Assembly (NCBI RefSeq): GCF_004124325.1
Contig: NZ_QBDT01000001.1
Coordinates: 4,154,001-4,218,000, forward strand
Source: Streptomyces sp. L2
GTDB lineage: Bacteria; Actinomycetota; Actinomycetes; Streptomycetales; Streptomycetaceae
Reading direction: 5' to 3'
Length of the DNA: 64,000 nucleotides
The translations under genes and the position numbers were made by a program. This document shows positions 22,426 through 37,667 of this stretch, in pieces. The notes below the pieces were generated by a model that saw nothing but the letters and a program-made list of their open reading frames with translations, was not told where the DNA came from and did not search any database. Every line of letters starts with the position of its first letter. The stretch's first letter is position 1.

Positions 22426-22989
22426 TCAGCCCGCAGGCCAGTCCCCTCGGCCCGACACGTCCAGCACCAGCGCGGCGATGTTCCACGCGTCGTCGTCGCC
22501 CCGGTGGTGGCGGCCCTCCAGCGGGAGCCCGGCCACCGTCAGGGCCTGGGCCATGCCGGGGCGGCGGCGCAGGCCGTAGGAGGCGGTGAAGGCGGCCTTG
22601 GCGTTGGTGTGCCGGTGGCCGAACGGGTACGGCGCCTCCGTCCGCAGGCACTGGCGGGTGAACTGGTGACGGTCGTAGTCGCCCCAGCTCGCCCACGGCA
22701 GCAGCCCGGCCCGGTGCCGCGCCGCCAGCTCCCGGCACGCCTCCGCGAAGGACAGCCCCTGGTCGACCTCGGCCTGCGTCAGCCCGGTCAGCTCCGTACA
22801 GAAGGGGCTGACCGCCGACCGGGCCGGCCGTACCAGCACCCGGTGCTTGTCGAGCCGTTCGCCGGCCCGCAGGTCGACGACGGTGAGCCCGATCTCGATG
22901 ATCTCGCTGACCTCACCGGGCGGCGGCTCCCCCTCCCAGCACGTCGCCTCGACATCGACGACGTTCAGCAGGTACTCGTGCGCGGTCAT
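22426..22989 (-). CDS. 3'-5' exonuclease, DEDDh type
   Basis: 187-residue nuclease of the KapD/ERI-1-like exonuclease group. VVDVEATCWEG gives the first acidic pair, FCTELTGLTQ the Exo region, YDRHQF the second Asp site, and HHRGDDDAWNIAAL the late His/Asp motif. Start at ATG 22989 because MTAHEYLLNVVD begins the fold. Its start overlaps the antiporter stop as ATGA, so it could be translated from that transcript. It sits just inside the left end of the island. Substrate unknown. Confidence 0.85.
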   Translation of the reverse strand: MTAHEYLLNVVDVEATCWEGEPPPGEVSEIIEIGLTVVDLRAGERLDKHRVLVRPARSAVSPFCTELTGLTQAEVDQGLSFAEACRELAARHRAGLLPWASWGDYDRHQFTRQCLRTEAPYPFGHRHTNAKAAFTASYGLRRRPGMAQALTVAGLPLEGRHHRGDDDAWNIAALVLDVSGRGDWPAG

Positions 22990-24293
22990 GAGCAGTGAGC
23001 GTAGGGACCGGCCCGCCCCTGCGGCACCCGAATTTCGCCGCGTGTGCCGGCCCCGCCGTCGTCCGCGTCGGCAAACGTTCGGCGAATCCATGACAGGGAA
23101 GGTGCGGTGAGCACGGTAGTGATCAGCGCCATGAGGACGAGCAGGCTATAGAGGGGCGTGCTGATCACACCGAGCTGAAGCCCGAGACCAAGCACGATCA
23201 ATTCCGTCAGTCCACGACTGTTCATCAGTGCGCCGATGGACATCGCATCCTGCCAATTCTGCCCACACGCCCGCGCCGCACATGTACCTCCTCCCCATTT
23301 GCCGAGGACGGCGACACCCGTCGTGACCGGTGCCCAGACCCACAGTTCTGGTGTGCCGGCAAGGCGGGCGAAGTTCGTCTGCAGCCCGGCCCCCACGAAG
23401 AACAGGGGGAGGAGAAGGGGCAGGACGAAGGTGTGCAGTCCGGTCGTGGCCCGTTCCACGACGCGCGAGCGGCGCGGCATGGCCACGCCGAAGAGGAAGG
23501 CCCCGAACTGGGCGTGCACACCGATGCTCTCGGTGGTGAGCCCCGCCAGGCACAGGCCGCCGAACAGTATGACGAGGACCAGGTGGTCCATGGTCCGAGG
23601 GGCCCGGCGGACACTCCGGGCCACGAGCGGGCGCACCGCGTACAGCGTCACCAGGACGAATGCCGTCGTCAACGCGATGGTGACCAGGACACCGTGGAGC
23701 GAACCGCTGCCGGCCAGGGCGGCGATCAGTGCGAGCAGGAACCACGCGGCGAGATCGTTCACGGCCGCGGCGGCCATGGCAAGGGTGCCGACCGCGGTGC
23801 CGTGCAGACCGCGGTCAGTGAGAATGCGAGCGAGCACGGGGAACGCGGTGATGCTCATCGACACCGCTACGAACAGGACGAACGGAGTTCTGCCGGTACC
23901 CGGCGGGGCGAGCGACGTGAACATCGTGAGCGCCAGAACAGAGCCGAGAATGAGCGGCAGGAGAATACTCGCCTGGCTGACCGCGAGGGCGGTTCGGCTG
24001 TTTCCCCGCAGTGTGGTGACGTCGAGTTCGCATCCGATGAGGAACATGAAGACCAACAGGCCGACGTTTCCAAGTGCCGATATGGTCGGCAGGACCGAGG
24101 CCGGGAAGAGCAGGCTCTGCCCGGCCGGCCAGACGAAGCCGAGCAACGAGGGGCCCAGGAGAACACCGGTGAGGATTTCTCCGACCACCGGAGGCTGACC
24201 GATGCGGCGGAAAAGCAGGGAACCCGCCTGGCAGGCCAGGACGACGACCGGCATGGTGAGCAGCAAGGCGCGAAGTGGATCAGAGCACGACAC
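22986..24293 (-). CDS. Cation/proton antiporter (CPA2 type)
   Basis: 435-residue membrane protein with about 12 hydrophobic segments: Na+/H+ or K+/H+ exchanger fold with GEILTGVLLGPSLLG, GLLVFMFLIGCELD and the NDLAAWFLLAL segment containing the conserved Asp. No TrkA-like C-terminal domain; the protein ends in a short hydrophilic tail. Start GTG 24293 is preceded by GGAAAG; ATG 24254 is an alternative. It overlaps the flavin reductase gene by 14 bp. In secondary-metabolite clusters such proteins often serve export or ion balance. Base composition looks less GC-rich than at the core genes. Confidence 0.85.
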   Translation of the reverse strand: MSCSDPLRALLLTMPVVVLACQAGSLLFRRIGQPPVVGEILTGVLLGPSLLGFVWPAGQSLLFPASVLPTISALGNVGLLVFMFLIGCELDVTTLRGNSRTALAVSQASILLPLILGSVLALTMFTSLAPPGTGRTPFVLFVAVSMSITAFPVLARILTDRGLHGTAVGTLAMAAAAVNDLAAWFLLALIAALAGSGSLHGVLVTIALTTAFVLVTLYAVRPLVARSVRRAPRTMDHLVLVILFGGLCLAGLTTESIGVHAQFGAFLFGVAMPRRSRVVERATTGLHTFVLPLLLPLFFVGAGLQTNFARLAGTPELWVWAPVTTGVAVLGKWGGGTCAARACGQNWQDAMSIGALMNSRGLTELIVLGLGLQLGVISTPLYSLLVLMALITTVLTAPSLSWIRRTFADADDGGAGTRGEIRVPQGRAGPYAHCS

Positions 24294-24852
24294 GAGTGGC
24301 ACTTTCCGCCAGTGGAGCACACGCGGATGCTGTCGTCGCGTCTGACCAACGGGCGTAACGGCGCCGTCCGTACAGCAGGGGCTCGGCGTCCTCATGGACC
24401 ACCGTACGGTCCACCTCGGCGAATACGGCGACGTGGTCGCCGATGTGGATCGTGTGCCGCACCCGGCAGTCGGCGATGGCCAGTGCCTCCGTGGCCAGGT
24501 GCGGTCCGTGAGCCCCGACCGGCAGCCGCCACTCGACCTCCGAAAAGCGATTGGCGCCGCAGGAGGCGAACAACTGCGCCGTGGCTCGCGCCTCTTCATG
24601 CAGCAGGTTGACCGCGAAGTGCCCGGAGCGGAGCACCGCGCCCAAGGTGGGGCCGGCCGCACGCAGGCACACCATCAGCGTCGCGGGTGAGAGGGCGACG
24701 CTGGTCAGCGAGTTACACGTCATACCGCGCGGCTCGCCGTCGGGGGTGAGGGCTGTCACCACCGACACGCCCGTGGGAAACCGGGCCATCAGCGGGCGGA
24801 TGTCGGCCGGCTGGTCGGCGGTCGCGCCATCCGGTACCGGGGGCCTTGCCAT
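24280..24852 (-). CDS. Flavin reductase (halogenase partner)
   Basis: 190-residue flavin:NADH reductase-like protein: RFPTGVSVVTALTPDGEPRGMTCNSLTSVALSP is the classic FMN-binding segment, and GHFAVNLLHEE and HTIHIGDHVAVFAEVD the later conserved motifs. It supplies FADH2 for the halogenase just upstream; the order halogenase then reductase, 50 bp apart on one strand, is standard. Start ATG 24852 has AGGAGA at proper distance. Confidence 0.9.
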   Translation of the reverse strand: MARPPVPDGATADQPADIRPLMARFPTGVSVVTALTPDGEPRGMTCNSLTSVALSPATLMVCLRAAGPTLGAVLRSGHFAVNLLHEEARATAQLFASCGANRFSEVEWRLPVGAHGPHLATEALAIADCRVRHTIHIGDHVAVFAEVDRTVVHEDAEPLLYGRRRYARWSDATTASACAPLAESATRVVL

Positions 24853-24902
24853 GAGGTTCTCTCCTGTCTGTGCACGCGAACTGTGTGTCACGAGCGGACG
24901 GT

Positions 24903-26657
24903 TCAGTTGATTCCCACGCTCATGTCACCGGGCGGCATGGCCCGCGGACCGGCCCAGCTGTCGTCGTCCTGGAGCAGTTCGCTGAGCATCTCCGGGTGAG
25001 AAGAGACGACCTGCAGGGCATCGTGCTGAGGCAGCGCGTGCCGGGTCAGCGTCTCGGCGGCCCGCCGTCGGGCATCCCAGTGCTCGGGCGGCTCGGTGGC
25101 GGGCAGGAGTCGGGCCGGCACCTGCTGGCCCAGCAGCAGCGTGTCGACTCCGCCGATGCCGAAGGGCGTCGGAGCGGCGTCGAGGATCAGCTGTTTCACC
25201 GACTCCTCGCGCCTCGCCAGCGGGGCGCCGTCCGCGAAGAGGTCGAGCAGGGGCTGCCAGCCGGAGACGTCCGTCAGCTCGCGGGCCTCCTTCCAGAACG
25301 GCGTGTCGAGCCGGGTGTTGAACCGGTAGTGGATGGCCAGGAACCAGCGCAGCGAATCCCACTTGCGGGCCAGGTAGGTGTTGACCATCGCCTGCGCATT
25401 GGGCCTGGCCCAGGATTCCGGAAGGGTGCTGAGCAAGGTCTGGACCGTCACGGTCATCATGTGAAGCGCCGAGGACTCCAGTGGTTCGACGAACCCGTAG
25501 GAGTTGCCCACAGCGATGACGTTGTTGCGCCAGACCTCGCTGCGGCGGCCGGACTTGAATCGGAGCTGCTTCAGCCCGGTGACGCCCGGGTAGCGCCGAG
25601 TCAGTTCGGCGGCGGCCTCGTCATCGGACATGGAAGCCGACGAATAGACGTAGCCCATGTGATCGCAGTCGGGTACGGGAATCGTCCAGCACCACCCGGA
25701 ATTCATGGTGGTGGCGGTGGTGTAGGGCTTCAGATGACCACGGTGGTCCCGCTCCGCGGTGATCGCCGAGTCGGTGAACAGACTGCCGGCGTAGCTTTCG
25801 TACGGCACACCCAGCCCTTCGCCCAGCAGCTTCGAGCGGAACCCGGTGCAATCCACGTAGAGGTCGTAGCTCAGATCACGGCCGTCGACCGTGCGCAGCC
25901 GGTCCACCCAGCCCCGGCTGTCGAGAACGACGTCTGTGACCGTGGCGTCGACGTGCTGAATTCCGCGTCGCTCCGCGAGCTCCCGCAGATATCCGACGAA
26001 ACCGCTGTTGTCCAGGTGATAGGCGAACGGCAAATGCTTGAGCAGCGACACCGGTTCCTTGCCCACGTTCAGGACAGGTGTCACATCGTTCTGCATCAGC
26101 AGCGAGGTGAGATTGAACGGATCGATGCCGCCGTGCTCGCGCAGGGCTCCCAGCATGCCGATCGAATGCTGTCCCCATCCGAAGGGGGCGGTGAATCCGT
26201 CCGGGTCGGCTCCCCAATCGAATTTGATTCCGAGCTTCCAGGCGGGGCGGACCCGCTCGTAGAATTCGGCCATGTCTATTCCGACCAGCTGGTGCAGGAA
26301 CCAGAGCAGGTAGGGAACGGTGGCCTCGCCGACGCCGATGATGGGGATGTCGCGCGATTCGACGAGCTCCACCTGGAGCCAGGGGCGCTTGGCCTGCAGT
26401 GCCAGCGCCGTGAGATAGCCGGCTGTGCCTCCGCCGATGACGCCTACCCGTCGGATGGCCTGCGGATCGTCCGATGAGGGCCGCCGGCCGAGATCCACTG
26501 GCTCGTGGTCGGCGACGAGCGCGGCGTCATCGATCTGCCGGCCGCCCTTGCCGAGCCAGGCGCGCACCGCCGCCGCGTCGTCGGGTGCGAGCGAAGCGAG
26601 TACCCGCTCCATACGGCCTGAATCGAGGCCCGTGCCACTCTCGGTCATGGATGGCAT
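24903..26657 (-). CDS. FAD-dependent tryptophan-halogenase-type enzyme
   Basis: 584-residue FADH2-dependent halogenase. GGGTAG at residues 75-80 binds FAD; WCWTIP at 322-327 is the exact W-x-W-x-I-P motif; Lys141 (AWKLGIKF) and Glu394 (EPLESS) match the catalytic Lys and Glu of PrnA. Canonical enzymes begin about 10 residues before the FAD motif; here about 70 extra residues precede it. Start 26657 is 9 nt after AAGGGA; 26666 and 26648 are alternatives. The likely substrate is Trp in a peptide of this cluster (the 43- and 53-residue peptides each have one), by analogy with lantibiotic halogenases such as MibH. Halogen (Cl or Br) and regiochemistry unknown. Confidence 0.88.
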   Translation of the reverse strand: MPSMTESGTGLDSGRMERVLASLAPDDAAAVRAWLGKGGRQIDDAALVADHEPVDLGRRPSSDDPQAIRRVGVIGGGTAGYLTALALQAKRPWLQVELVESRDIPIIGVGEATVPYLLWFLHQLVGIDMAEFYERVRPAWKLGIKFDWGADPDGFTAPFGWGQHSIGMLGALREHGGIDPFNLTSLLMQNDVTPVLNVGKEPVSLLKHLPFAYHLDNSGFVGYLRELAERRGIQHVDATVTDVVLDSRGWVDRLRTVDGRDLSYDLYVDCTGFRSKLLGEGLGVPYESYAGSLFTDSAITAERDHRGHLKPYTTATTMNSGWCWTIPVPDCDHMGYVYSSASMSDDEAAAELTRRYPGVTGLKQLRFKSGRRSEVWRNNVIAVGNSYGFVEPLESSALHMMTVTVQTLLSTLPESWARPNAQAMVNTYLARKWDSLRWFLAIHYRFNTRLDTPFWKEARELTDVSGWQPLLDLFADGAPLARREESVKQLILDAAPTPFGIGGVDTLLLGQQVPARLLPATEPPEHWDARRRAAETLTRHALPQHDALQVVSSHPEMLSELLQDDDSWAGPRAMPPGDMSVGIN

Positions 26658-26709
26658 CACGTTCATTCCCTTCCCGCGGCGCATTGCGCCGACGGGTCGT
26701 AGGTGTGGT

Positions 26710-27015
26710 TCAGGTATTCATGAGGCGGTCATGGAAAGCAGGAACGATCACTGCCTCGCAGCGCCCCAAAGTGAGCCCTGGAATTACTTGGCATCGTGCG
26801 AACGCCCGTCGGCAGAGGCGGTCGGCGGCCGCCTCTGCCTCGTTGAGCGAGTCAGCGACGACGAAGAGGCCGAGTACCGGCCCCCCCGGTCCCTCGGGGT
26901 GGGCCTTCACGCGCTGCAAACCGTCTGCGGGCACCGCCTCTTCGATGATCAACTCCGTTATGTCGCAGGGGAGTTCACAGTCCGTCGGTTTGACTTCTGC
27001 GTGAATTAGATACAT
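26710..27015 (-). CDS. Small cluster-associated protein (101 aa)
   Basis: 101-residue protein: MYLIHAEVKPTDCELPCDI ... VLGLFVVADSLNEAEAAADRLCRRAF ... VIVPAFHDRL. Short proteins of this pattern (MYLxHA, later GLFxxADxLxEAEAxAxxLCRRA) occur in several Streptomyces peptide clusters as conserved hypotheticals without known function. It could be a chaperone or partner of the halogenase or oxygenases. First in the minus-strand group with the halogenase; start 27033 is an alternative. Confidence 0.65.
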   Translation of the reverse strand: MYLIHAEVKPTDCELPCDITELIIEEAVPADGLQRVKAHPEGPGGPVLGLFVVADSLNEAEAAADRLCRRAFARCQVIPGLTLGRCEAVIVPAFHDRLMNT

Positions 27016-27150
27016 GACCCTATTGGTGCGCATAGTCGGGATCGCCCCGCGGTGACTGGCGTTCGTGTGCGCCCCGCGGAAGGCGGATCTGCATCGATTA
27101 ACATCGGATGGGCCCCTCGCGGGTCGCTCAACGTTCAGGGGGATTTGAAT

Positions 27151-28143
27151 ATGTTGCAGACGCTCGGGCTTGACGCGATGGCGGAGTTGGTTTATCGGGC
27201 GATGATCCGGCATCCGCAGGAGACCGTGGCCGACCTGGCCCGCCGGCTCGACGTGTCCCAGCAAGACGTGGGCGAAGCACTGGACCGGCTCAGTTCCCTG
27301 GCTCTGGTCAGCACCGCGACGGACCCCTCAGGATTCCGGGCGGTGAGCGCATCCCTCGGCATGGAATTGCTGTTGGCGCGCCAGCAAGCGGAGTTGCTGG
27401 CGCAGCAGCAGCGCATCGAAGCCTCTCGGGCCGCGGCAGCCCAGCTGATCGCGGAGTGCTCGGACGGGGGAACCGGAACCCGTAGCTCGGTGGGAGAAGA
27501 GATCCGCGGAATCGCGGATATCCGCCTCAAGCTGGAGGAACTCGGGGCTGGAGCGATGGACGAGGTGCTGACCCTGGCGCCGGGAGGCGCGCATTCGGCA
27601 GCGGACCTGGAGGCCAGCCGCGGCCCCAACTCCGAGCTGCTCGCTCGGGGTGTGAAGATCCGGACCATCTACCTCGACAGCGTGCGCAACGACCCGCAGA
27701 CGCTGGCACACATCCAATGGCTCAGCGACCGCGGCGCCCATGTACGCACCGTCGCCGCACTGCCGGTCCGTCTGATCCTCATCGACCACCGGGTCGCGGT
27801 GCTGCCGACCAGCGCGACGGACGCGGCCCTCGGCGCGGTGGTCCTGCGCGGGCAGGGCACCGTGACCGCGCTGAACGCCCTCTTCGAGAGCATCTGGAAC
27901 GGCGCCGGCCCCCTGGCCGAACCCGGAAGGCGTGACGCCCGCGGCCTGACGGCCCAGGAAGCCGAGACCTTGCGATTGCTCAGCCAGGGGCTGACCGACG
28001 AGGCCATCGCCCACCGCCTGGGCGTCTCGCCCCGGACCACCCGCCGCATCGTCAGCGGGCTGATGCAGCAGCTGAACGCCCGGAGCAGGTTCGAGGCCGG
28101 CAGCCGCGCCGTCCAGGACGGCTGGATCCCCCTGGCGCGGTGA
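27151..28143 (+). CDS. TrmB/LuxR-type transcriptional regulator
   Basis: 330-residue orphan regulator. N-terminal TrmB-like winged helix (AELVYRAMIRHPQETVADLARRLDVSQ), central phospholipase-D-like domain (GVKIRTIYLDSVRNDPQTLAHIQWLSDRG), C-terminal LuxR HTH (LTAQEAETLRLLSQGLTDEAIAHRLGVSPRTTRRI). No receiver domain. Such single regulators commonly control RiPP and other peptide clusters. Divergent from the small gene at 27015; convergent with the GTPase gene (13-bp gap). AGGGGG precedes the ATG. Confidence 0.88.
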   Translation: MLQTLGLDAMAELVYRAMIRHPQETVADLARRLDVSQQDVGEALDRLSSLALVSTATDPSGFRAVSASLGMELLLARQQAELLAQQQRIEASRAAAAQLIAECSDGGTGTRSSVGEEIRGIADIRLKLEELGAGAMDEVLTLAPGGAHSAADLEASRGPNSELLARGVKIRTIYLDSVRNDPQTLAHIQWLSDRGAHVRTVAALPVRLILIDHRVAVLPTSATDAALGAVVLRGQGTVTALNALFESIWNGAGPLAEPGRRDARGLTAQEAETLRLLSQGLTDEAIAHRLGVSPRTTRRIVSGLMQQLNARSRFEAGSRAVQDGWIPLAR

Positions 28144-28156
28144 GCCGGACGCCATG

Positions 28157-29278
28157 TCAGAAGCCCCGGCGCGGCACGGGCTTGCCCTTGGCGGCCGCCC
28201 GGGCCCGGCCCTCCTTGTACAGGCTGTGACTCCGCATGAAGTACTCCTGCTCCAGCCGGGGGTTGCCGCGGCGCTCCAGATAGTCGTTCTCCCGGAGTAG
28301 CTGCCGGTAGCTGTCGAGACGCCGGCTCTGGAGAGCCCCCGACTCGACCGCTGCCAGCACCGCGCACCCGGGCTCGTTGCCGTGCCCGCAGTCCGAGAAA
28401 CGGCAGTCCTGCGCCAGCTCGGTGACGTCGGTGAAGGTGGCGTCCATGGCGTCGGCCGACAACCACACCGACAGCGCCCGCAGCCCAGGAGTGTCGATGA
28501 CGGCACCGCCACCGGGCAGTGTCACCAACTCGCGCCAGGTCGTGGTGTGCCGCCCCTTGCCGTCGTTCTCGCGGACGGCGGAGGTCCGCAGGGTGCCGCC
28601 GCCGAGAAGGGCGTTGACGAGTGTGGTCTTCCCCGCGCCTGACGCACCGAGCACCGCGAGGGTCCGGCCATCGCCCAGGAGGTCGGAGGTGAGCCCGTCC
28701 AGCCCCTCCCCGGTGAGCCCGGACACGGCGAGGACGGGCACACCGTAGGCGATCCCGGCGATCTGCCGTACCGCCTCGTCCAGGACGCCGACGGGGGTCA
28801 CGTCTGTCTTGGTCAGGACGACCGCAGGGGTGGCGCCGCTCTCCCACGACATGGCCAGGAAGCGTTCGAGCCGGGAGATCTGGATGTCCCGGTCCGCCGC
28901 GACCACGTTCAGGATCGTGTCCACGTTGGTGGCGAGTGCCTGCGGCTCGCCTCGGCTGCCGGGTGCGCGCCGCACGATGGCGCTGCTCCTCGGCAGCAGT
29001 GCGTCCAGCACCACGGTGCCTTCGCCGAGGCGGCGGGCTGTCGCCCAGTCGCCGACCGCGGGCACCCCGCACGCCCCGAAGCGCGCCATGGGGTGGCCCG
29101 TCGCCGTGGCGAGTTGTGCGCGGTCGCGTTCCACGCGGATGATCCGTCCGACCTCCAGGGCCGCATCGCCCCCGCGTCGGCTCCGGATCGCGGCCAGCTC
29201 GTCCATCGTGACGGAGGACGCGCCGAGACGGCGGAGCTCCGCGGATTCCTCCGAGGTCAGGTCCCTCGTGGCAGTCAT
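28157..29278 (-). CDS. RsgA-like circularly permuted GTPase
   Basis: 373-residue YjeQ/RsgA-family GTPase. N-terminal OB-like segment (EVGRIIRVERDRAQLATATG), then permuted GTPase motifs: TKTD (G4), GASGAGKTT (P-loop, G1), DTPGLR (G3), and a C-terminal zinc motif CRFSDCGHGNEPGC. RsgA removes assembly factors from the 30S subunit. Housekeeping rsgA is usually elsewhere, so this extra copy inside a peptide cluster could be a resistance or immunity factor for a ribosome-targeting product. It overlaps the exporter gene by 4 bp. Confidence 0.85.
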   Translation of the reverse strand: MTATRDLTSEESAELRRLGASSVTMDELAAIRSRRGGDAALEVGRIIRVERDRAQLATATGHPMARFGACGVPAVGDWATARRLGEGTVVLDALLPRSSAIVRRAPGSRGEPQALATNVDTILNVVAADRDIQISRLERFLAMSWESGATPAVVLTKTDVTPVGVLDEAVRQIAGIAYGVPVLAVSGLTGEGLDGLTSDLLGDGRTLAVLGASGAGKTTLVNALLGGGTLRTSAVRENDGKGRHTTTWRELVTLPGGGAVIDTPGLRALSVWLSADAMDATFTDVTELAQDCRFSDCGHGNEPGCAVLAAVESGALQSRRLDSYRQLLRENDYLERRGNPRLEQEYFMRSHSLYKEGRARAAAKGKPVPRRGF

Positions 29279-30630
29279 GCCAACTCCATTTCCTTGGGAT
29301 GCGCCGTGGCCGCGGGGTTTCGGTACGTCCTCGATCCACGCGCCAGCGGTACCAGGAGGTTCGCCACTGCCGTGGCCGCCGCCATGCCGATCAGCAGGTG
29401 CGACATGCCGATCAGGTCCGCTGCCGGCCCCGCGGCGAGGAGTCCCAGCGGCATGGGCAGGGTCGAGATGAAGGTGTCCAGGGCATCCACCCTCGCCATG
29501 GAATCCTCGGGAACCTGCGACTGGATGGCCGTGTCCAGGAGCACGGTGCCGAACACCATGCCGGCGATGGCCGTGCCCGAGGTGAGGACCAGCAGCACCC
29601 GGCCGCCCGAGGCGAGCGCCACCAGCTCGGCCGGTATCAGCAGGCCCATCAGCAGGTATCCCGTCACCAGCGGTTTACGGGGGTGCCAGCGGGACGCCAC
29701 CATTCCGCCCAGCAGGCCACCGAGGGAGGCGGAGGTCCCCACCAGCCCCCACGTGGCCGCACCGCCGAGCCGTGCCTCGGTGGCCGCCGGACCCAGGACG
29801 AAGAAGGCCGAGGTCCCCACGTTGGTCACAGCAGAGGCCAGGAACGAGCTCCACATCCACGGGTGCTTGTTCACGACGGCGACACCCTCGCGGAAGCGTG
29901 CGAACTCCCGCTTGAGGAAGGACCCCTGCGCCGCGCCCGAGCGCACCGGCTCGCCCGTGAGGCCGGGCTCGTGGTGGGTGCCGGACTGCTCACGCGCCGG
30001 ACGGGGACCCAGCGATCGGGCACGCGTCAAGAGGGTGAGGAAGACCGCGCTGGCGAGGAACGACGCCGAGTCGAGCGCGTAGGCGACGCCGTAGTCCCCC
30101 ATGGCGGCGAGCAGCCCCGAGAAGGCCGGGCCCAGCATGACGATGAAGTTCTGGGAGATGGCGACGAGGGCGTTGGCTCGTTGCCGGTGTTCCTCGTCGA
30201 CCGTCTCGGCGAGCAGACCCATGGAGGCCGGACCGAAGAGCGCCGAGGCCGCTCCGTAGAACGCGGCGCCCGTGGCCAGTTCCCAGATGGTGGCACGTCC
30301 GCTGAACAGAGCAGCGGCGACGACCCCCTGGACCGCGCAGCGGATCAGGTCCGACCAGACCAGCACCCGGACGCGGTCGAAGCGGTCGGCGATCTGGCCG
30401 GCGACGGGGGCCATGGCGAGGCGGGAGGCCCACAGCACTGCCAGTACCAGGCCGAGGAGGGTGACGGACCCGCTGATGCGCAGGACCGCGAAGGCGGTGG
30501 CCACGGGCACCATGGCGTCACCGACAGCGGAGATCGACTGCCCCAGGAAGAAGAACCGGAAGACGGGGTCCCGCAGCACACGGACGACGGAGGTGCGCTT
30601 CTCCGGCGGAGCGATGGCGTTGTCAGGCAC
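29275..30630 (-). CDS. MFS exporter
   Basis: 451-residue major facilitator with about 12 transmembrane segments (DPVFRFFFLGQSISAVGDAMVP, LAVLWASRLAMAPVAGQIADRFDR with the A-motif). A hydrophilic central loop of about 45 residues (LGPRPAREQSGTHHEPG...) is cytoplasmic. Overlaps the oxygenase gene by 8 bp and the GTPase gene by 4 bp. Most likely exports the peptide product and gives self-resistance. Confidence 0.88.
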   Translation of the reverse strand: MPDNAIAPPEKRTSVVRVLRDPVFRFFFLGQSISAVGDAMVPVATAFAVLRISGSVTLLGLVLAVLWASRLAMAPVAGQIADRFDRVRVLVWSDLIRCAVQGVVAAALFSGRATIWELATGAAFYGAASALFGPASMGLLAETVDEEHRQRANALVAISQNFIVMLGPAFSGLLAAMGDYGVAYALDSASFLASAVFLTLLTRARSLGPRPAREQSGTHHEPGLTGEPVRSGAAQGSFLKREFARFREGVAVVNKHPWMWSSFLASAVTNVGTSAFFVLGPAATEARLGGAATWGLVGTSASLGGLLGGMVASRWHPRKPLVTGYLLMGLLIPAELVALASGGRVLLVLTSGTAIAGMVFGTVLLDTAIQSQVPEDSMARVDALDTFISTLPMPLGLLAAGPAADLIGMSHLLIGMAAATAVANLLVPLARGSRTYRNPAATAHPKEMELA

Positions 30631-31654
30631 CGTGCACCGCCACAGGCCGGACCGCCCTCAGGTCCAGGGCGAGCGAGAGGATCTGCTGAGCCGTCTCCGG
30701 CGCACCGGTGATGGCCGCGAGTTCGTGACGGCTGAAGCCCTGCGGGCGGCCCAGCAGGTGAAGGGCGTCCGGCATCCACGGGGTGTCGGGCAGGATGACC
30801 TGCCGCCCGCGCAGGAACGCGGCGATCCTGCCGCCCTGTTCGCTCCGCCATTCCGGCCGGCTTCCGCCCGGTGCGACGAACTCGACGGCGTCAGCGTCGC
30901 CGGGAGCGCCTGCGGACGGCCGAGCCGGGGGCGAGAGCAGGTATCCGTTGCTCCGCAGCGCGCGCTGCCGGTCGGGCGATGTCGTCGAGTCCGGTGGGAA
31001 GACGTCGAAACCGAGCGAGACCCCGAAGCCGGAGGAGCGCAACAGGTGATGGATGCCCGCCGGCATGAAGGCCACGTCGCCCGTCCGCATCACATGGTGG
31101 GTCGCCTGGGCCATCCACTCCTCCGCGGCCGATGCGTCGGAGCCGGCCGGCGCGGTGTCGGAATACCAGATCTCCTTGGGGTTCGGCCCGCAGTGGGCAA
31201 GGAAGATCGCCTCGTCGTCCTGGTGGATTCCGAACGGAGTGGCACCGACGTTGCCCAGGACGGCGTACACGTCCAGGCCGCCGACCACGCCCTCGGCAGA
31301 GGAGAGGGGACGCGCGAACGCCTCGTGGGCGAGGTCGTGCAGGCGTTCGTTCCAGGCGGACAGATGGCTGACGGAGACGTAGAACCGCTCGCCTCCGAGC
31401 CACAGCTTCAGGAACTCCTCAAGGGTGGAGGCGGCGAGCAGCTTCGGAGCGTGGATTTCCGGGATGAGCGCAGGCTTGACCTCCCCGTCCACAAAGGGTG
31501 TCATCGGCGGCTCGCCGTCCGGAGCGGCGGTCATGGACTTCAGCGTGTCCAGCAGCAGCCTCATCCAGTCATGCCGCTCGAACCCCTCGAACGATGTCCA
31601 GTAGGCGGGGCTCCGCAGCATGTTGGTCGCTTCCAGAAGGCTTTCTGCCGTCAT
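30623..31654 (-). CDS. JmjC/cupin-like Fe(II)/2OG oxygenase (copy 4)
   Basis: 343-residue member of the ribosomal-oxygenase-like JmjC group. HxD facial triad: His144-x-Asp146 in TPFGIHQDD and distal His202 in PAGIHHLL. A winged-helix-like C-terminal part follows, with LRSNGYLLSPP near the middle that is shared with two paralogues in this operon. Start at ATG 31654 overlaps the methyltransferase gene by 4 bp. In this setting it probably hydroxylates a residue of the cluster peptide; which one is unknown. Confidence 0.82.
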   Translation of the reverse strand: MTAESLLEATNMLRSPAYWTSFEGFERHDWMRLLLDTLKSMTAAPDGEPPMTPFVDGEVKPALIPEIHAPKLLAASTLEEFLKLWLGGERFYVSVSHLSAWNERLHDLAHEAFARPLSSAEGVVGGLDVYAVLGNVGATPFGIHQDDEAIFLAHCGPNPKEIWYSDTAPAGSDASAAEEWMAQATHHVMRTGDVAFMPAGIHHLLRSSGFGVSLGFDVFPPDSTTSPDRQRALRSNGYLLSPPARPSAGAPGDADAVEFVAPGGSRPEWRSEQGGRIAAFLRGRQVILPDTPWMPDALHLLGRPQGFSRHELAAITGAPETAQQILSLALDLRAVRPVAVHGA

Positions 31655-32283
31655 TCCTTCTCCCCGGTGGATGTGATGATCAAGCTGGCGGCCGACCGCT
31701 GCGGAACGTGCCCGATGTATGCGTAGGTCCACGAGCGCTCTTCGCTCACCTCGAGCAGGGCCCGCAACTCGTGGTCCATGAAGTTGGGGTAGTTGTAGAG
31801 TTCGTCGAAGATCAGAACCGTCCCCGGCACCACGTAGTCCGCGATGCCGTCCAGCACGGTTCGCGTCGAGCTGTACAGATCGCAGTCGATGTGAGCCAGG
31901 GCGATCGGCTCACCGCGCGCGACGAAGAACTCGGAGACCGTGTTCTCGAACATCCCCTGCACGAGGCGCGCGTTGTCACGCAGCGCTTTCGGCTCACCGT
32001 GAAAGGCGCCGACGGGCCAGGAGCGCTTCGGGCTCAGTTCCCACTGCTCGGGCAGTCCGGCGAAGCTGTCGAAGCCGTACACCGGCCCTGAGGTCTCCCC
32101 GCACAGTTGCCAGAGGGATCCTCCGGTACTGACGCCGAACTCGCACCACAGCCCCTTCTCAGGAGCCCGGTAACCGGCATTGATCAGGTGGTGGTACTGG
32201 TCGATGTCCGGGCCGCGTTCCGAATCGTAGGCACGACTGGCCCTGATGCGCTTTTCGTCGGCGCGCATCTGTTCAAGCCGCAT
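31651..32283 (-). CDS. TylF-like SAM methyltransferase
   Basis: 210-residue class I methyltransferase of the TylF/MycF (macrocin O-methyltransferase) group: LWCEFGVSTGGSLWQLC is motif I, VYGFDSFAGLPEQWE the SAM acidic loop, LAHIDCDLYSSTRTVLD the metal/catalytic region, VLIFDELYNYPNFMDHE the late motif. Mg-dependent O-methylation is known for this family. In this cluster it may methylate a hydroxyl put in place by an oxygenase. Start ATG 32283 has AAGGGA 9 nt upstream; ATG 32301 is possible. Confidence 0.85.
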   Translation of the reverse strand: MRLEQMRADEKRIRASRAYDSERGPDIDQYHHLINAGYRAPEKGLWCEFGVSTGGSLWQLCGETSGPVYGFDSFAGLPEQWELSPKRSWPVGAFHGEPKALRDNARLVQGMFENTVSEFFVARGEPIALAHIDCDLYSSTRTVLDGIADYVVPGTVLIFDELYNYPNFMDHELRALLEVSEERSWTYAYIGHVPQRSAASLIITSTGEKE

Positions 32284-33106
32284 GCGTCCGGTTCCCTTCA
32301 TCGTGCTCCAGCGCGCCCAGCACCTTCAGCCACGGTGCCCGGCCTCTCGTCTCCAGGTGGCGTCGGGCGAAGACGGCGTTCCCCCGGTTCACGAAGTTGC
32401 CGGTGGCGGCCACCGTGGTGTCGAGGTTGACCACCTCGTGGGCCCAGCCGCTGGGGATGATCACGAGGTCGCCCGCGTTCTGGGTGCACTCGAATTCGAG
32501 ACGGTCCCGGTTTCCGACGAGGTCGAGGTACGGCTCGGGCAGCACGCCCGCACGTACCGACGCGGCCGGCGAGAGGAACCGCCAGCGTTTGGTCCCCGCC
32601 GCGAGTGCGTTCCAGGCGCTGCTCATCATCACGTCGACGTGCAGCTCGGAACCGGAACCACGCGGCCCCACGTAGATCCACTCCCAGGCGGGCCTGGCCG
32701 CCTGCGGCAGCCGCGCGAACCAGTTGCGCAACGAGGAGGGCATGTCCGCGGGGAGGAAGGCTCCGGGATCGGGCTCGGAGGCGACCGTCCAGTCCTTCAC
32801 GTACCACGGCTCGCCGGCTGGACAGGGACTGCCGTCACCGCTCTCGCAGTACCGGAGGAACTCGCGCAGCGTCGTGCCCCAGACGGTTTCAGGCTCGGGC
32901 CCGTCCCCGGTCGCGGGAGCACGGCGTACCGCCGTCAACGTCCGCTGGCCGTGGTCGGCGATCAGCCTCCCCGAGGCGCACGTCCGGGTCAGCGGCCAGT
33001 CCGATGCCCCGGCACGGATGATGACGGGGCCCTCGTCGACACTCCACTCGACGGGCCGGCCGGGCTTCCTCTCAACAGGACGCCGGGCCAGGTTCGTTGA
33101 TGTCAT
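32273..33106 (-). CDS. JmjC/cupin_8-type Fe(II)/2OG oxygenase (copy 3)
   Basis: 277-residue JMJD6/FIH-like oxygenase. His156-x-Asp158 (GSELHVDVMM), Lys173 (TKRW) for 2-oxoglutarate, His223 (IPSGWAHEV) complete the iron and cofactor site. It lacks the C-terminal winged-helix part of the other three. ATG 33106 overlaps the upstream gene by 4 bp; its end overlaps the methyltransferase start. It could hydroxylate the side chain of Asp, Asn, His or Arg in the peptide. Confidence 0.85.
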   Translation of the reverse strand: MTSTNLARRPVERKPGRPVEWSVDEGPVIIRAGASDWPLTRTCASGRLIADHGQRTLTAVRRAPATGDGPEPETVWGTTLREFLRYCESGDGSPCPAGEPWYVKDWTVASEPDPGAFLPADMPSSLRNWFARLPQAARPAWEWIYVGPRGSGSELHVDVMMSSAWNALAAGTKRWRFLSPAASVRAGVLPEPYLDLVGNRDRLEFECTQNAGDLVIIPSGWAHEVVNLDTTVAATGNFVNRGNAVFARRHLETRGRAPWLKVLGALEHDEGNRTHAA

Positions 33107-34407
33107 GACGTGCGTCCCTTCCGGCCCCGGTCCCCGCTGAGGGCGCGCAGGCCACGGTGCTGTACGGCGACCCGCAGCAGATGCCCCGCGATCTCTCTCA
33201 GTTCGTGTCCGTCGAGCCGGTTCACGGCCTCACGGCAGGTGAACGAAGCAGGGCGACCGGCCAGCCAGCCGAACCACTCCTCGATGCGCGGGTCGTAGCG
33301 CATGTCGAGCAGTCGCCCGTGCAGCGCCACGCACAGGCGGTCCTCGTGGCGCACGGTGAGGATCGGGAAGTCCTGCCGGACCTCCAACTCCTGGTCAGGG
33401 CCGAGTGCCGGCGGCGCCCCGGTCAGTACGGGCTTGTAGATGAGGTACCCGTTGCTGCGGAGCCGCTGAAGGTGGACAGCGGCGTACGAGGCAGTCCTGG
33501 CCGCGAGGTCGGAGATGTCCTTCAGCGATGTCATCACGTGCTGGCGCAGCGCGGGAACCGCAGTCGGCACCGGTGCGTTCGCGATCGGCGTCTCGGCGTC
33601 GTCGCGCAGCAGCAAGGCAACCGATTCCGCTACGACGGCCCCCAGGGTCGCGGGCATCAGGGACAGGCCGATGAACGCCGAGAACCCCGAATTCTCGAAG
33701 ATGTGGAAGTCACCGGTGGGGATCAGCAGCGCGTCACCCGGCTCCATGACGAAGCGCTGGGCGTGCTCCGCGATGGCGGACGGGTCGAACCGGCGGTCGT
33801 CACGTTCGGCGTCGAACACCCGCCCCTCCGACTCGACGAGGCGCGCGTAGTCCTCGCGGCGCCAGATCAGGCACTCTTTGGCCGCCGGTCCGAGGTGCAG
33901 GAGCAGCGAGGGCTCACGATCGGCGTGCACACCGAAGGGCGTCTGCCCCGCGTTCGCCATGAAGGCGTAGAAGTCCAGGCCCCCGGCGGGTACGCCCCAC
34001 GCTTCGACCAAGGGGCGCACCACACCCGCTGTCAGAACCTCGTGCAGGTCGTCGTCCCAACTGGGCACTCCGTTGAGGGCCAGGCAGAACGCGTCCTCGC
34101 CCAGCACCTGGGAGAGCCACTGCTCGAAGTCGAGTGCCGGATCCGGGTCGCAGTGCGAGAGCCGTTCCAGCAGATCGATGCGCTGGCCGTCACCGGCGAA
34201 GACCCGCGCGACCGGGCGCTGGGTGGAGAGCGCGAAGGCCTCCACCACCCTCCTGAGGCCGGCGGCGAGGGTATGGACGTCGGACACCGCGCTTTTGATC
34301 AGAGCGGGTTCCCGGAGTCCCGCCGAGGACAGCACAAGCTCCTCGACCCAGTTGTCCCGAAATATCACTTGACTCTCCTCGACCCAGCTCATGGGTTCAG
34401 CTCTCAT
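33103..34407 (-). CDS. JmjC/cupin-like Fe(II)/2OG oxygenase (copy 2)
   Basis: 434-residue protein, the longest of the four. Iron ligands His161-x-Asp163 (TPFGVHADR) and His235 (PTGDFHIF). About 140 N-terminal residues are extra helices, and the C-terminal third (LRSNGYLIYKPVL ... RPASFTCREAVNRLDGHELREI) looks like the winged-helix domain of ribosomal oxygenases. It overlaps the arginase gene and the next oxygenase gene by 4 bp each, so all are coupled. Confidence 0.82.
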   Translation of the reverse strand: MRAEPMSWVEESQVIFRDNWVEELVLSSAGLREPALIKSAVSDVHTLAAGLRRVVEAFALSTQRPVARVFAGDGQRIDLLERLSHCDPDPALDFEQWLSQVLGEDAFCLALNGVPSWDDDLHEVLTAGVVRPLVEAWGVPAGGLDFYAFMANAGQTPFGVHADREPSLLLHLGPAAKECLIWRREDYARLVESEGRVFDAERDDRRFDPSAIAEHAQRFVMEPGDALLIPTGDFHIFENSGFSAFIGLSLMPATLGAVVAESVALLLRDDAETPIANAPVPTAVPALRQHVMTSLKDISDLAARTASYAAVHLQRLRSNGYLIYKPVLTGAPPALGPDQELEVRQDFPILTVRHEDRLCVALHGRLLDMRYDPRIEEWFGWLAGRPASFTCREAVNRLDGHELREIAGHLLRVAVQHRGLRALSGDRGRKGRTS

Positions 34408-35609
34408 CGGCCTGCGAGCAGGAGGGAACCCGCGCAGCCGGCCAGCGCCATGGCCGCCAGGTTGCGTGACTGCTCACTGGACGTCACCTCGACCAGGTCC
34501 GCGCCGATCACCTCGAATTCCTGGGTGACGAAGCGCAGTGCCGCGTCGATCTCGCGGAACGTCAGCCCGCCCATGACGGGCCAGGCCACCTCGGGGGCCA
34601 CGACCGGGTCCAGCACATCGGCGTCGATGCTGACGTACACGGGGGACTCCCGCGGGATGTCCCCGAAGATCTCCTCGATGCCGGATCCCTCGATCACCTG
34701 CGCGGCACTGACGACGCGCGTCTTGTCCGTGGAAGACGGTGCTTCGTCCGAACCGGCGGCGTAATCGAATTCGCGGATACCGATCTGGAGCAGCCGCTGG
34801 ACGGGACCGAGCGCCTCGACGTGGGACATGACGTTCCCGTTGGTCAGCCCGGACTGGTTGGCCTTCCGCGTGGCGTATCTGTCGGTGTGAGCGTCGAAAT
34901 GGATGACACTGAAGGACTGGTGATGCTGTGCCACGGCCTGAAGCACGGGCAGGCTCAGCCAGTGCTCGCCGCCCAGCACCAGCGGCCGGCCGCCTGCGGC
35001 GAGTACTTCCCGTGCGGCGAGCCGCACCTTGCGCTCCACCACGTCCGCCGTGTCCGTGCGCGGGTTGTGGCAGATGTCGCCGAGGTCGAGCGGGAGGGCG
35101 TCGGACAGGTGGAAGCCCCGGTTTCGGTTCCAGTCCCAAAGGCTTCTGCCGGCGTCTCCGCCGGATGAGGACGAGAAGAGCCTGAGGGACGCCCGGATCG
35201 CGTCCGGGCCGCCGACCGGCGAGTGGGTGCGCGGGCAGTCGTACGCGACAGGCACACCGAACAGACACCACTGGCCTGCGAGTTCACGGGTGGAGAGTTC
35301 TGTCCAGGCGGCCGTCGTCCCCACGGATCGCCGGCTCTTCTTGAGGAGGCCCGACATCACGGTCCCGGCCTCCGAAGCGGGCACCAGGAGCTCGTTGCGC
35401 AGGAGGAAGCCCACGACGTCCGGGGCGAGTGACGGGGCTCCGGCATCCAGGGGCCGAGGCACGGCGAAGCTCTCCCAGACCGCGAGCAGTTGCGGTGAGG
35501 CCTCGATTCTGCGACCGGTCTCCACGTCCTCCACGACCACACCGCGCGGCCCTCGGACCAGTTCGAGCCGGGGGTTGCGGAGGTACGGCCGACTGGGCGA
35601 CTGGGTCAT
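34404..35609 (-). CDS. Arginase/agmatinase-fold enzyme with RRE-like N-domain
   Basis: 401-residue ureohydrolase. Metal-site motifs GGEH (213-216), DAHTD (239-243) and SIDADVLDP (327-335) are all intact, so it should hydrolyse a guanidino group to urea. The first 90 residues are not part of arginases; RLELVRGPRGVVVEDVETG, then VVGFLLRNELLV, has the strand-helix pattern of PqqD-like RiPP recognition elements. That fusion suggests a peptide arginase making ornithine, as known for OspR in other RiPPs. ATG 35609 (or GTG 35612) overlaps the oxygenase stop. Confidence 0.85.
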   Translation of the reverse strand: MTQSPSRPYLRNPRLELVRGPRGVVVEDVETGRRIEASPQLLAVWESFAVPRPLDAGAPSLAPDVVGFLLRNELLVPASEAGTVMSGLLKKSRRSVGTTAAWTELSTRELAGQWCLFGVPVAYDCPRTHSPVGGPDAIRASLRLFSSSSGGDAGRSLWDWNRNRGFHLSDALPLDLGDICHNPRTDTADVVERKVRLAAREVLAAGGRPLVLGGEHWLSLPVLQAVAQHHQSFSVIHFDAHTDRYATRKANQSGLTNGNVMSHVEALGPVQRLLQIGIREFDYAAGSDEAPSSTDKTRVVSAAQVIEGSGIEEIFGDIPRESPVYVSIDADVLDPVVAPEVAWPVMGGLTFREIDAALRFVTQEFEVIGADLVEVTSSEQSRNLAAMALAGCAGSLLLAGR

Positions 35610-36808
35610 CACCGCACCTCGACAGCGCTGATGCCGACCAGCTTGGTCAGAATGAGCTGGGCACGCTGCGAACCGGCACAGCTTTCCGCCTCGATGACCT
35701 CGTCGCCGTTCAGCGACTCGATCAGCCGCCTGATTTCCGGCTGGTCCGGACAGCTGATCAGGGTGCCTCGGGCGAAAATCTTGATGGTTCCGTCGTGACC
35801 CTCCTGGAGGATCACGGGGAACGGCGCGACACGGCGGACCGTCCTGCCCTTGAGGGAGGGCACCGCGACGCGCTGCGGCGTCGCGCGGAACCCGCAGTTG
35901 CTCCTGATCCTCAGCACATAGTCCGCGACTGCTTCGGTGACGTCGATGCTCGGGCCACCGGCAGCCGACGGCGCGACGGTCTGGCCGTCGTGCACCTGCT
36001 GAAGCAGCTCGCCGGGCAGCCCGATCTCCCGCGCCTGAGGCTTCATTTCGAAGGCGCGTGAGCGCATGGCTCTGCGGACCAGCCGCTCAGGGGCGTACTG
36101 GATCAGGGTGAGCACCATGGAGACGGAGAATCCGTGGTTCTCCGCAACGTGGTAATAGCGCGTGGCGGGGAGGAAGAACATGTCTCCCCGCTGGACCGAG
36201 TGATGCTGTCCGTGGTCGGAGAGTCGCTGCGTCTGATAATACGAACGGCGTCCCCCGGTCAGCGCTTCGAACCGCTCAGGCTCCCAGAGCGATATCCGCC
36301 GAGGCGAGGGTCCGAAGTTGAAGTGCAGGGCATCGGCGGCGTCGTCGATGTGGATGCCGAAGGGGGTGAAGCGTGAGTCCCCGATGAAATACAGCAGTTC
36401 AGCGTGCAGCAGGCGGTCAGGGATGTGCTGCTGGAGCTCCGACGTGAGGTCGGCTACCGCAGGCGCCACCGCGGGGAACCATTTCTCCGCCTTGTTGATG
36501 ACGACGGTGTGTTCGGTAGCACCGAAAGCCGTGCGGCACGTGGTTTCGAGCTCTTCCAGATTCCTGCCCGGATCAAGGGAGAGGAAAGCCTCGGTGGCAC
36601 GCGGTTCATGGGCGCCCCCTGTGTAGACGCGGAGGTCGTTCACCGCCGCGTCGCGCTGCGCGGAGTCGCGCATGGCACGGAGCGAGCCGAGCACGGCGTC
36701 CTCAAGGACCGTGCCGTGTAGTCCCCTCGTGTCGACGGTCGCGGGTGACCTCAGTCCCGCAGACTGCTCGAAGACGTCGCGGCCGGTCCGCCCGAACGGA
36801 AACGTCAT
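35609..36808 (-). CDS. JmjC/cupin-like Fe(II)/2OG oxygenase (copy 1)
   Basis: 399-residue oxygenase, first large gene after the precursor genes. Ligands His153-x-Asp155 (TPFGIHIDD) and His220 (ATRYYHVAE). The segment RIRSNCGFRATP aligns by eye with LRSNGYL in copies 2 and 4, so the three are paralogues. C-terminal region is winged-helix-like. It begins 87 bp after the 38-residue peptide gene, across a strong hairpin, consistent with reduced expression compared with the precursor. Confidence 0.82.
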   Translation of the reverse strand: MTFPFGRTGRDVFEQSAGLRSPATVDTRGLHGTVLEDAVLGSLRAMRDSAQRDAAVNDLRVYTGGAHEPRATEAFLSLDPGRNLEELETTCRTAFGATEHTVVINKAEKWFPAVAPAVADLTSELQQHIPDRLLHAELLYFIGDSRFTPFGIHIDDAADALHFNFGPSPRRISLWEPERFEALTGGRRSYYQTQRLSDHGQHHSVQRGDMFFLPATRYYHVAENHGFSVSMVLTLIQYAPERLVRRAMRSRAFEMKPQAREIGLPGELLQQVHDGQTVAPSAAGGPSIDVTEAVADYVLRIRSNCGFRATPQRVAVPSLKGRTVRRVAPFPVILQEGHDGTIKIFARGTLISCPDQPEIRRLIESLNGDEVIEAESCAGSQRAQLILTKLVGISAVEVR

Positions 36809-36847
36809 GGAGTAATCCCCCCTTCTCCTGGCAAGAGCCTGACGCCC

Positions 36848-36884
36848 TCCGCCGGCCGGAAGCTCGGTGCCTCCGGCCGGCGGA
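36848..36884 (-). terminator. Attenuating hairpin after 38-aa peptide gene
   Basis: Perfect 13-bp arms (TCCGCCGGCCGGA at 36848-36860 and its complement at 36872-36884) with an 11-nt loop, starting 11 nt beyond the peptide stop and before the first oxygenase gene. RiPP operons often place a partial terminator here to raise the precursor-to-enzyme ratio. Confidence 0.72.
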
Positions 36885-36895
36885 CGAGGCAGATG

Positions 36896-37012
36896 TCAGT
36901 GCCCGGCGGTCTGGACCGGACGCGCGACCAGCTCGGTGTCCTCCAGCTCGATGACCTTGATGTCCAGGTTCTCGAGGGAGATTTCCTGCTCGATCTTCTG
37001 GTCGTTGCCCAT
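36896..37012 (-). CDS. Putative RiPP precursor peptide, 38 aa
   Basis: Tiny gene with an excellent RBS (AGAGGAG, 7 nt spacing) and ATG 37012. The product starts MGNDQKIEQEISLENLDIKV, is strongly acidic in the leader-like part (VIELEDTELVA), and ends ARPVQTAGH, with one Arg and one C-terminal His. The LDIKVIE segment loosely resembles FxLD-type leader motifs, but Cys, Ser and Trp-rich core residues are missing. Arg and His are plausible sites for an arginase and JmjC oxygenase. Alternatively a leader-only helper peptide. Next gene on the same transcript is the first oxygenase. Confidence 0.7.
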   Translation of the reverse strand: MGNDQKIEQEISLENLDIKVIELEDTELVARPVQTAGH

Positions 37013-37100
37013 GATGTTTCTCCTCTTGGTGTTTTCATGAATCCCGAACCGGAGTCCCGGCAGGGAAGATCAGTTATGGCCGGCCGTTATTCACTGCCGG

Positions 37101-37131
37101 CCGCCGGTTACGGCCGACCCGCTACCGGCGG
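37101..37131 (-). terminator. Hairpin over the stop of the 43-aa peptide gene
   Basis: Arms CCGCCGGT (37101-37108) and ACCGGCGG (37124-37131) with a 15-nt loop. On the minus strand the first arm covers the last Arg codons and the stop of the 43-residue peptide. Weaker than the one after the 38-residue gene; possibly a partial terminator or mRNA stabiliser. Confidence 0.5.
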
Positions 37132-37253
37132 TCCAGGAATTCCTCGCCGTCCATCCTGGCAACCGGGGCGAACCACATGGTGAACGGCTGAGCGACGGGC
37201 TCGTCGAAAAGAGTGGGGGGCTTCTCCATGGACTTGTACGTGTCCTGTGTCAT
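37122..37253 (-). CDS. Putative RiPP precursor peptide, 43 aa
   Basis: 43-residue peptide beginning MTQDTYKSMEKPPTLFDEPV and ending with PFTMWFAPVARMDGEEF followed by LDRR. One Trp, three Arg and three Pro lie in the last 20 residues. It is the best match to the enzymes: Trp for the halogenase, Arg for the arginase, Asp/Arg/Pro for oxygenases. It starts only 2 nt after the 53-residue gene. Where leader and core separate is unknown; no protease gene is in the cluster. The reading frame is intact, with GGGGA upstream of ATG 37253. Confidence 0.7.
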   Translation of the reverse strand: MTQDTYKSMEKPPTLFDEPVAQPFTMWFAPVARMDGEEFLDRR

Positions 37254-37255
37254 GA

Positions 37256-37417
37256 CTAGCTTCCCCAGGTCAGGTCGACCGGCCTGACATGCGTGTCCGG
37301 AGCCGATGCGGTAGTGGGCGCAATGCTCGCGTGGCCGGTGATCGGTGCGGTTCCGAGAATGACGGCGCTCGCCACGACAGCGATAGCGGTAAAGGTTTTG
37401 ATCACAGTCTTCTTCAT
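37256..37417 (-). CDS. Small secreted peptide, 53 aa
   Basis: First gene of the operon. MKKTVIKTF followed by a hydrophobic stretch (TAIAVVASAVILGT) is a clear Sec signal; cleavage near GHA-S would leave about 20 residues ending in THVRPVDLTWGS, which contains Trp, Arg, His and Asp. The RPV tripeptide also occurs in the 38-residue peptide. It might be a third substrate, a secreted immunity peptide, or a helper. ATG 37417 is used; 37432 is possible. It has no obvious homologue. Confidence 0.55.
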   Translation of the reverse strand: MKKTVIKTFTAIAVVASAVILGTAPITGHASIAPTTASAPDTHVRPVDLTWGS

Positions 37418-37629: not shown

Positions 37630-37667
37630 CGTGTGCCGGGAGCGCGGGCGTGGGCGATCCTGGGGCC

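Follow-up and report, generated by a model that had tools for sequence, protein, structure and literature searches.

A Streptomyces gene cluster that pairs JmjC oxygenases and an arginase with a short candidate precursor peptide

Biphenomycin is built from a short ribosomal precursor in which an arginase forms ornithine, itself then the target of a hydroxylating JmjC/cupin enzyme, and the pbs genes include one of the major facilitator superfamily (MFS), according to the available portions of the reports (PMC12707348, PMC12257519). The same portions describe an MNIO, a B12-radical SAM cross-linker, and a TldD-type protease. In the enteropeptin system, the PF00491 arginase KgrD acts on the precursor of a ribosomally synthesized and post-translationally modified peptide (RiPP), and the accessible text also describes a thiomorpholine and an Fe-S-dependent methyltransferase (PMC12703449). 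Here, we describe a locus in the 8.07-Mb genome of Streptomyces sp. L2, within a stretch of 64,000 nucleotides (nt) that we call the window (RefSeq assembly GCF_004124325.1, contig NZ_QBDT01000001.1, positions 4,154,001 to 4,218,000). We consider it probable that this locus is a RiPP cluster of an undescribed kind, in which a 38-residue peptide, P3, is modified by JmjC enzymes and an arginase.

The minus-strand genes run in the order P1, P2, P3, JmjA, arginase, JmjB, JmjC/Cupin_8 enzyme, TylF-like methyltransferase, JmjD, MFS protein, and RsgA. Every named gene is an open frame, all but a plus-strand regulator lie on the minus strand, and short overlaps are common. A Pfam scan of ten cluster proteins scored (in bits, family cut-off in parentheses) arginase at 162.8 (22), RsgA at 140.6 (30), Trp_halogenase at 393.2 (21), MFS at 107.8 (33.4), TylF at 37.3 (23), and JmjC in gene 4 at 46.5 (24). 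JmjA, JmjB, and JmjD stayed under the cut-offs, their best cupin/JmjC scores being 16.2, 16.1, and 13.8 bits, and no lanthipeptide gene, MNIO, or B12-radical SAM family was recognized among the ten proteins. An original prediction, made from the sequence of the window, had named four JmjC/cupin oxygenases, an arginase, a TylF-like methyltransferase, an exporter, and an RsgA-like GTPase as parts of a RiPP cluster; all are open frames with Pfam or motif support, and the anatomy of related loci supports a cluster of RiPP type.

The locus resembles pbs in its short precursor, arginase, JmjC/cupin enzyme, and MFS gene but contains no recognizable MNIO, B12-radical SAM cross-linker, or TldD-type protease. 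As far as the available portions of those reports go, the biphenomycin arginase is UPF0489-type, whereas that of the window belongs to PF00491, and the pbs precursor carries the motif FHAFRF where the window peptide has a C-terminal GH. The features that define the biphenomycin family (MNIO plus B12-radical SAM enzyme, FxF-type core) were not found here. The resemblance to enteropeptin lies in the arginase family; neither the thiomorpholine nor the Fe-S-dependent methyltransferase described in the accessible text has a visible counterpart in the cluster. No RiPP class with this gene set appeared in the literature searched, from which subscription papers were mostly missing, so that absence is no proof. 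The earlier statement that no described class has this combination agrees with this as far as the gene set goes. The chemistry has a precedent, since in biphenomycin an arginase and an ornithine hydroxylase of the JmjC type both work on the same precursor; that pairing is the nearest described logic.

P3 (positions 36896 to 37012, minus strand; MGNDQKIEQEISLENLDIKVIELEDTELVARPVQTAGH) is the likely precursor peptide of the cluster. It follows an AGGAG-type Shine-Dalgarno sequence, precedes a JmjC gene, and combines an acidic leader with the tail ...LVARPVQTAGH, which ends in GH; it has a single Arg, a single His, and no Trp or Phe. P3 is one of 3 among the 491 small open reading frames (ORFs) of the window that end in GH. 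Our own simple gene finder gave it a codon-usage score of 27.4 (P2, 14.6; P1, 6.0), and when it was aligned with two 31-residue Streptomyces precursors from related loci, only 4 and 1 of 2000 shuffles did equally well or better. The 87-nt spacer between P3 and JmjA (36809 to 36895, minus strand) contains a strong G+C-rich hairpin, with a predicted fold of -52.9 kcal/mol (z of -4.0 against 200 mononucleotide shuffles). All seven related spacers contain a GGCCGG-based hairpin, with z values of -0.6 to -3.0, only weakly above shuffles because their G+C content is high. Differences among eight Streptomyces precursors number 43, 34, and 107 by codon position, as expected of a translated gene. It is the shared position, spacer length and hairpin, GH end, acidic leader, and shuffle significance that argue for P3 as precursor. 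A promoter and terminator scan of positions 36600 to 37700 returned nothing.

Genome searches, two with JmjA and one each with JmjB and the JmjC protein of related locus L118, covered 199, 343, 394, and 293 genomes, in overlapping samples that included the L2 genome. The JmjA, JmjB, and L118 searches gave 13 other genomes, and all 13 neighborhoods were opened. Five of these genomes (G162, G227, G224, G932, and G331, the last over two contigs) hold what we call a GH-type cluster: a regulator, a 31-residue peptide ending in PR(Q/R)DVGH, JmjC, JmjC_2, MFS, a 2-oxoglutarate (2OG) oxygenase, and RsgA. The rest comprise one decayed remnant (G856), six loci with GMRPDA-like (RPD) repeats beside JmjC, and one JmjC gene with a radical SAM gene (G746). 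On plasmids, JmjB matched 31 records and the L118 protein 30; the 12 opened were two Streptomyces records of GH type, three Streptomyces records of RPD/RPG-repeat type, one unclear record, four from Pantoea/Klebsiella, and two from Nostoc (repeat type). The two Streptomyces plasmid records of GH type list no gene for the precursor, in gene tables that are incomplete.

In seven Streptomyces GH-type loci, a gap of 80 to 92 nt separates the 31-residue peptide from a JmjC gene of the family found in the window, with JmjC_2, MFS, 2OG-oxygenase, and RsgA genes downstream. The four Pantoea/Klebsiella loci encode a 57- or 60-residue peptide ending in R(R/S)DTGH, divergent from an arginase and two cupin/JmjC genes; in three of them an annotated MFS gene comes next, after either a GNAT gene or an unnamed one at that position, and in the fourth a hypothetical protein. 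Of the 25 loci opened, 23 have a precursor-like peptide adjacent to JmjC (none was recognized in L107 or L129), and L119 carries two near-identical peptide genes. A short peptide gene beside modifying enzymes, the mark of a RiPP cluster, recurs across these loci. The nearest relatives are in Streptomyces sp. NPDC086549, which has counterparts of JmjA (P0125, 72% identity), JmjB (76%), and the arginase (73%), with a longest contig of 70,950 bases for each. A 9,961-base contig encodes an arginase (70%) and, as one metagenomic protein (P0124), the fused counterparts of JmjB (72%) and the JmjC/Cupin_8 enzyme (65%), and a JGI fragment is 74% identical to JmjA over 196 residues.

Four proteins of the cluster are predicted Fe(II)/2OG oxygenases of the JmjC type. 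Three are ribosomal oxygenase (ROX)-like and 24 to 33% identical to one another in local alignments: JmjA (35609 to 36808), JmjB (33103 to 34407), and JmjD (30623 to 31654, alternative start 31732), all on the minus strand. The fourth is a JmjC/Cupin_8 hydroxylase (32273 to 33106, minus strand). Each retains the HxD...H triad, at H153-x-D155...H220 in JmjA, H161-x-D163...H235 in JmjB, H170-x-D172...H228/229 in JmjD, and H156-x-D158...H223 in the JmjC/Cupin_8 enzyme. The fold was modeled for JmjB, whose best structural matches are the ribosomal oxygenases YcfD, NO66, and MINA53; it shares with them the JmjC core and a C-terminal winged helix (about residues 340 to 423), at 10 to 16% identity in the structural alignments. 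Those enzymes modify ribosomal proteins, whereas here several paralogs stand behind a tiny peptide gene.

The arginase-family enzyme (34404 to 35609, or from 35612, minus strand) is a likely peptide arginase. It keeps all six metal-ligand His/Asp positions, which together with its fold place it in the arginase/ureohydrolase superfamily, and within Pfam (E up to 0.1) it matches PF00491 only, with no UPF0489/pfam12640 (OspR-type) domain. Its N-terminal domain of about 95 residues, with predicted strands at 9 to 38 and helices at 40 to 50 and 64 to 72, resembles the winged helix of a RiPP recognition element (RRE), and in predicted structure an RRE-like topology fits both this region and the JmjB C terminus. 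The two supposed RREs aligned to each other with an hhalign probability of 3.3%, and the low-E matches in the profile tests for an RRE were to repetitive or designed proteins, no single stretch passing on its own. Of the arginase with an RRE-like domain that had been proposed, the arginase is borne out; the domain resembles an RRE in predicted topology, with no match in sequence. A similar N-terminal extension is seen in arginases P0012 to P0014 (32 to 35% identity), whose sources are [Clostridium] ultunense, Oceanobacillus massiliensis, and one other. Of 392 same-genus genomes searched, 31 matched at 1e-25; apart from the genome itself, these matches were at 6.6e-28 or weaker and covered the catalytic part at 31 to 37% identity. 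Against genome contigs, the best 80 loci were at most 37% identical, nonactinobacterial (Pseudomonadota included), and apparently ordinary agmatinase-type enzymes, and they were set aside.

The cluster most likely makes a modified ribosomal peptide, and from the genes and motifs we infer the following substrates, sites, and order of steps. P3 would be translated and its acidic leader probably bound by the RRE-like domains of the JmjC proteins and arginase. The arginase would convert the single Arg in ...VARPVQTAGH to ornithine. JmjA, JmjB, JmjD, and the JmjC/Cupin_8 enzyme would hydroxylate side chains of P3, with Arg/Orn and His the likeliest residues because YcfD and NO66/MINA53 hydroxylate those. 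One of the hydroxyls so formed may be methylated by the TylF-like enzyme, and the leader would then be cut by a protease and the product exported by the MFS protein. RsgA would protect the producer's small ribosomal subunit, and the regulator, perhaps with its small neighbor, would control the operon. Of the features forecast for the product, ornithine is plausible, given the metal ligands kept by the arginase, and so is hydroxylation; O-methylation is a conjecture, as is a siderophore product (OH-Orn, OH-Asp, OH-His).

Several observations weigh against this scheme. The seven Streptomyces GH-type loci lack an arginase; no P3 ortholog was seen, because the window is the only arginase-bearing Streptomyces cluster readable as DNA. 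P3, like P2, matched only itself in the protein database, and its similarity to the Pantoea precursors is not significant, being reached by 339 and 275 of 2000 shuffles. Profile searches found no RRE sequence match for the window domains, no protease gene was recognized in the cluster, and the JmjB model is middling (pLDDT of 74.2, pTM of 0.65). RsgA could be present for another reason, and a MibH-type, Trp-directed halogenase does not suit a peptide without Trp.

This last point raises the question of whether the halogenase belongs to the cluster at all. The MibH-like flavin-dependent halogenase (24903 to 26684, minus strand) scores 708.9 bits against MibH (PDB 5UAO) over residues 56 to 582 of 593, with the next best structure at 229.5, which places it with the MibH type. 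MibH, the NAI-107 Trp halogenase, chlorinates peptidyl Trp after leader removal, in the portion of the report available (PMC10858898), and its likeness probably makes the window enzyme one that acts on a Trp peptide; no lanthipeptide gene was recognized among the ten cluster proteins scanned. Next to it lie a flavin reductase (24280 to 24891, alternative start 24852) and a CPA2-type cation:proton antiporter (22986 to about 24254), both on the minus strand and below the cut-offs of named families; the membership of all three is uncertain. The halogenase, reductase, and LuxR-type regulator reported as adjoining the operon are indeed there, but the chlorinated product drawn from them is uncertain. 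Chlorination of His, by analogy with GE81112, is weakened by the MibH match.

Since P3 has no Trp, either P1 or P2 is the substrate, these genes are part of something else, or the halogenase now accepts a different substrate. We give somewhat less than an even chance to there being two neighboring units, one a RiPP operon with P3, the JmjC genes, and the arginase, the other an operon of halogenase, flavin reductase, and antiporter that serves a different pathway and is only adjacent, an arrangement compatible with P3 as precursor. It would explain the missing Trp, no halogenase occurs in the read stretches of the seven Streptomyces GH-type loci, and the blocks are separated by the TrmB/LuxR-type regulator (27151 to 28143, alternative start 27052, plus strand; Pfam). 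Yet regulators 33 to 39% identical to this one stand beside related precursors, as does a divergent gene of about 90 residues; its apparent counterpart here, judged by eye against the ~91-residue genes at the same place, encodes a protein of about 101 residues (26710 to 27015, minus strand), and the halogenase follows it by 25 nt on the same strand.

We think it unlikely that the enzymes truly act on P1, P2, or both, alone or together with P3, with P3 a helper or one of several cores and the MibH-like enzyme chlorinating Trp to give a two-component product. P1 (53 residues, 37256 to 37417, minus strand; end RPVDLTWGS) and P2 (43 residues, 37122 to 37253, minus strand) each have one Trp, as a peptidyl-Trp halogenase would need, P1 shares an RPV stretch with P3, and the protein database has a gene prediction for P2. 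However, the similarity of P1 to P3 was reached by 323 of 2000 shuffles, and P1 has a secretion-type N terminus (a signal peptide by eye) and the weakest coding score. Shuffles matched P1 against the two Streptomyces precursors 908 and 935 times in 2000 and P2 1201 and 1219 times; against the Pantoea peptides the counts were 1049 and 199 for P1 and 1420 and 427 for P2. The regions upstream of 11 related precursors contain 50 small ORFs on the same strand; none of them matched P2 (194 of 200 shuffles reached the best score), and P1 matched one weakly (9 of 200), a mechanically called ORF at a single locus; no convincing counterpart of either was found in the related loci. Three peptides had been said to lead the operon, which is supported for P3 only; homologous clusters without the peptides were to refute the proposed cluster, and the loci read lack P1 and P2 but keep P3-type peptides. 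A DNA pattern of the P1 tail occurred in 1 of 60 other genomes, whereas a backward control pattern gave 7 hits. The idea of P1 as a secreted peptide common in Streptomyces was rejected, with no match in 119 other genomes.

Least probable, we believe, is a locus that makes no RiPP, in which the ROX-like enzymes have ribosomal or other proteins as substrates, the tiny peptide serves as a leader for regulation or attenuation, and RsgA marks a ribosome-modifying island. In its favor, the closest structural matches are to ribosomal oxygenases, the ribosome is also where RsgA works, and a hairpin follows the peptide gene. Against it, the enterobacterial relatives keep the GH peptide, on the opposite strand, with the JmjC pair, MFS in 3 of 4, and no RsgA in the stretch, the peptide gene has the codon-position pattern of a translated gene and is duplicated in L119, and JmjC relatives also stand beside repeat-type peptides.

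Those repeat-type neighbors were seen in L096, L097, L098, L120, L123, L126, L127, L130, L134, L135, and L150, where JmjC lies near (M/V)RPD(A/G) or MRPG repeats. The annotated Streptomyces records of this type list amidinotransferase, TauD, aminoacyl-tRNA synthetase-like, and desaturase genes, apparently marking another repeat-precursor family. In L107 (9123 to 13683), a JmjC relative adjoins a JmjC_2 gene, a 329-residue protein without a Pfam match, and a radical SAM protein. Elsewhere in the window, a small gene pair at 9120 to 9802 has, by eye, the look of a VapBC-type toxin-antitoxin system.

The remaining cluster genes encode the TylF-like methyltransferase (31651 to 32301; Pfam), the predicted MFS exporter (29275 to 30630; Pfam; 31 to 34% identical to relatives in GH-type clusters), and the RsgA-like GTPase (28157 to 29278), all on the minus strand. 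In L122, MFS and RsgA came out of the gene finder as fragments. Exactly two RsgA matches occur in 52 of 61 same-genus genomes. The L2 genome has a third: besides the cluster copy there is one at 47% and another at 34%, the latter adjoining a gene that resembles aroA by eye. In the six genomes that carry a GH-type cluster or its remnant, the matches number three or four, some of them pieces. Because it is a third copy in a genus usually showing two, a role of the cluster RsgA in self-protection is plausible. No RsgA with a RiPP gene cluster was found in the literature searched, under the limit given above.

A quick RsgA tree with 26 rows has an unresolved fork from which the window copy, one RsgA of a nonribosomal peptide synthetase (NRPS) cluster, and the seven GH-type copies arise on long branches, outside the genus-wide second-copy group (support, 82). 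This placement lends no clear support to a recent origin of the cluster copy from the genome's own second RsgA, the method being quick and the branch long. The NRPS-cluster paralog (L202, 8562 to 9662, in G054) lies with a 2OG dioxygenase and a prolyl-oligopeptidase-type hydrolase, and RsgA may be a wider self-protection gene. The decayed cluster of G856 (L149, 8666 to 9841; L201, 8381 to 9722) has a precursor without a start codon, a JmjC cut after about 66 residues, most biosynthetic genes lost, and one RsgA remnant whose matches are split over two frames. About 14 kb away, beside a 2OG-oxygenase remnant, a second RsgA is intact and shares 91% identity with the L118 protein. This suits retention of RsgA as immunity, as a single case in which recent deletion is also possible.

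More tentatively, and with some doubt on our part, these loci may form a distinct RiPP class on Streptomyces chromosomes and plasmids and on enterobacterial plasmids, in which JmjC enzymes resembling ribosomal oxygenases, with an arginase in some lineages, hydroxylate a short GH-ending peptide, and the Streptomyces product hits the small ribosomal subunit and calls for an extra RsgA as immunity. If the proposed pathway is true, it would be a kind of RiPP made mostly by Fe(II)/2OG oxygenases related to ribosome hydroxylases, from precursors of 31 to 60 residues. A GH-ending peptide next to JmjC would then be a simple search rule for further clusters, and, if RsgA is an immunity factor, the product would be a lead to an unusual small-subunit ribosome inhibitor.

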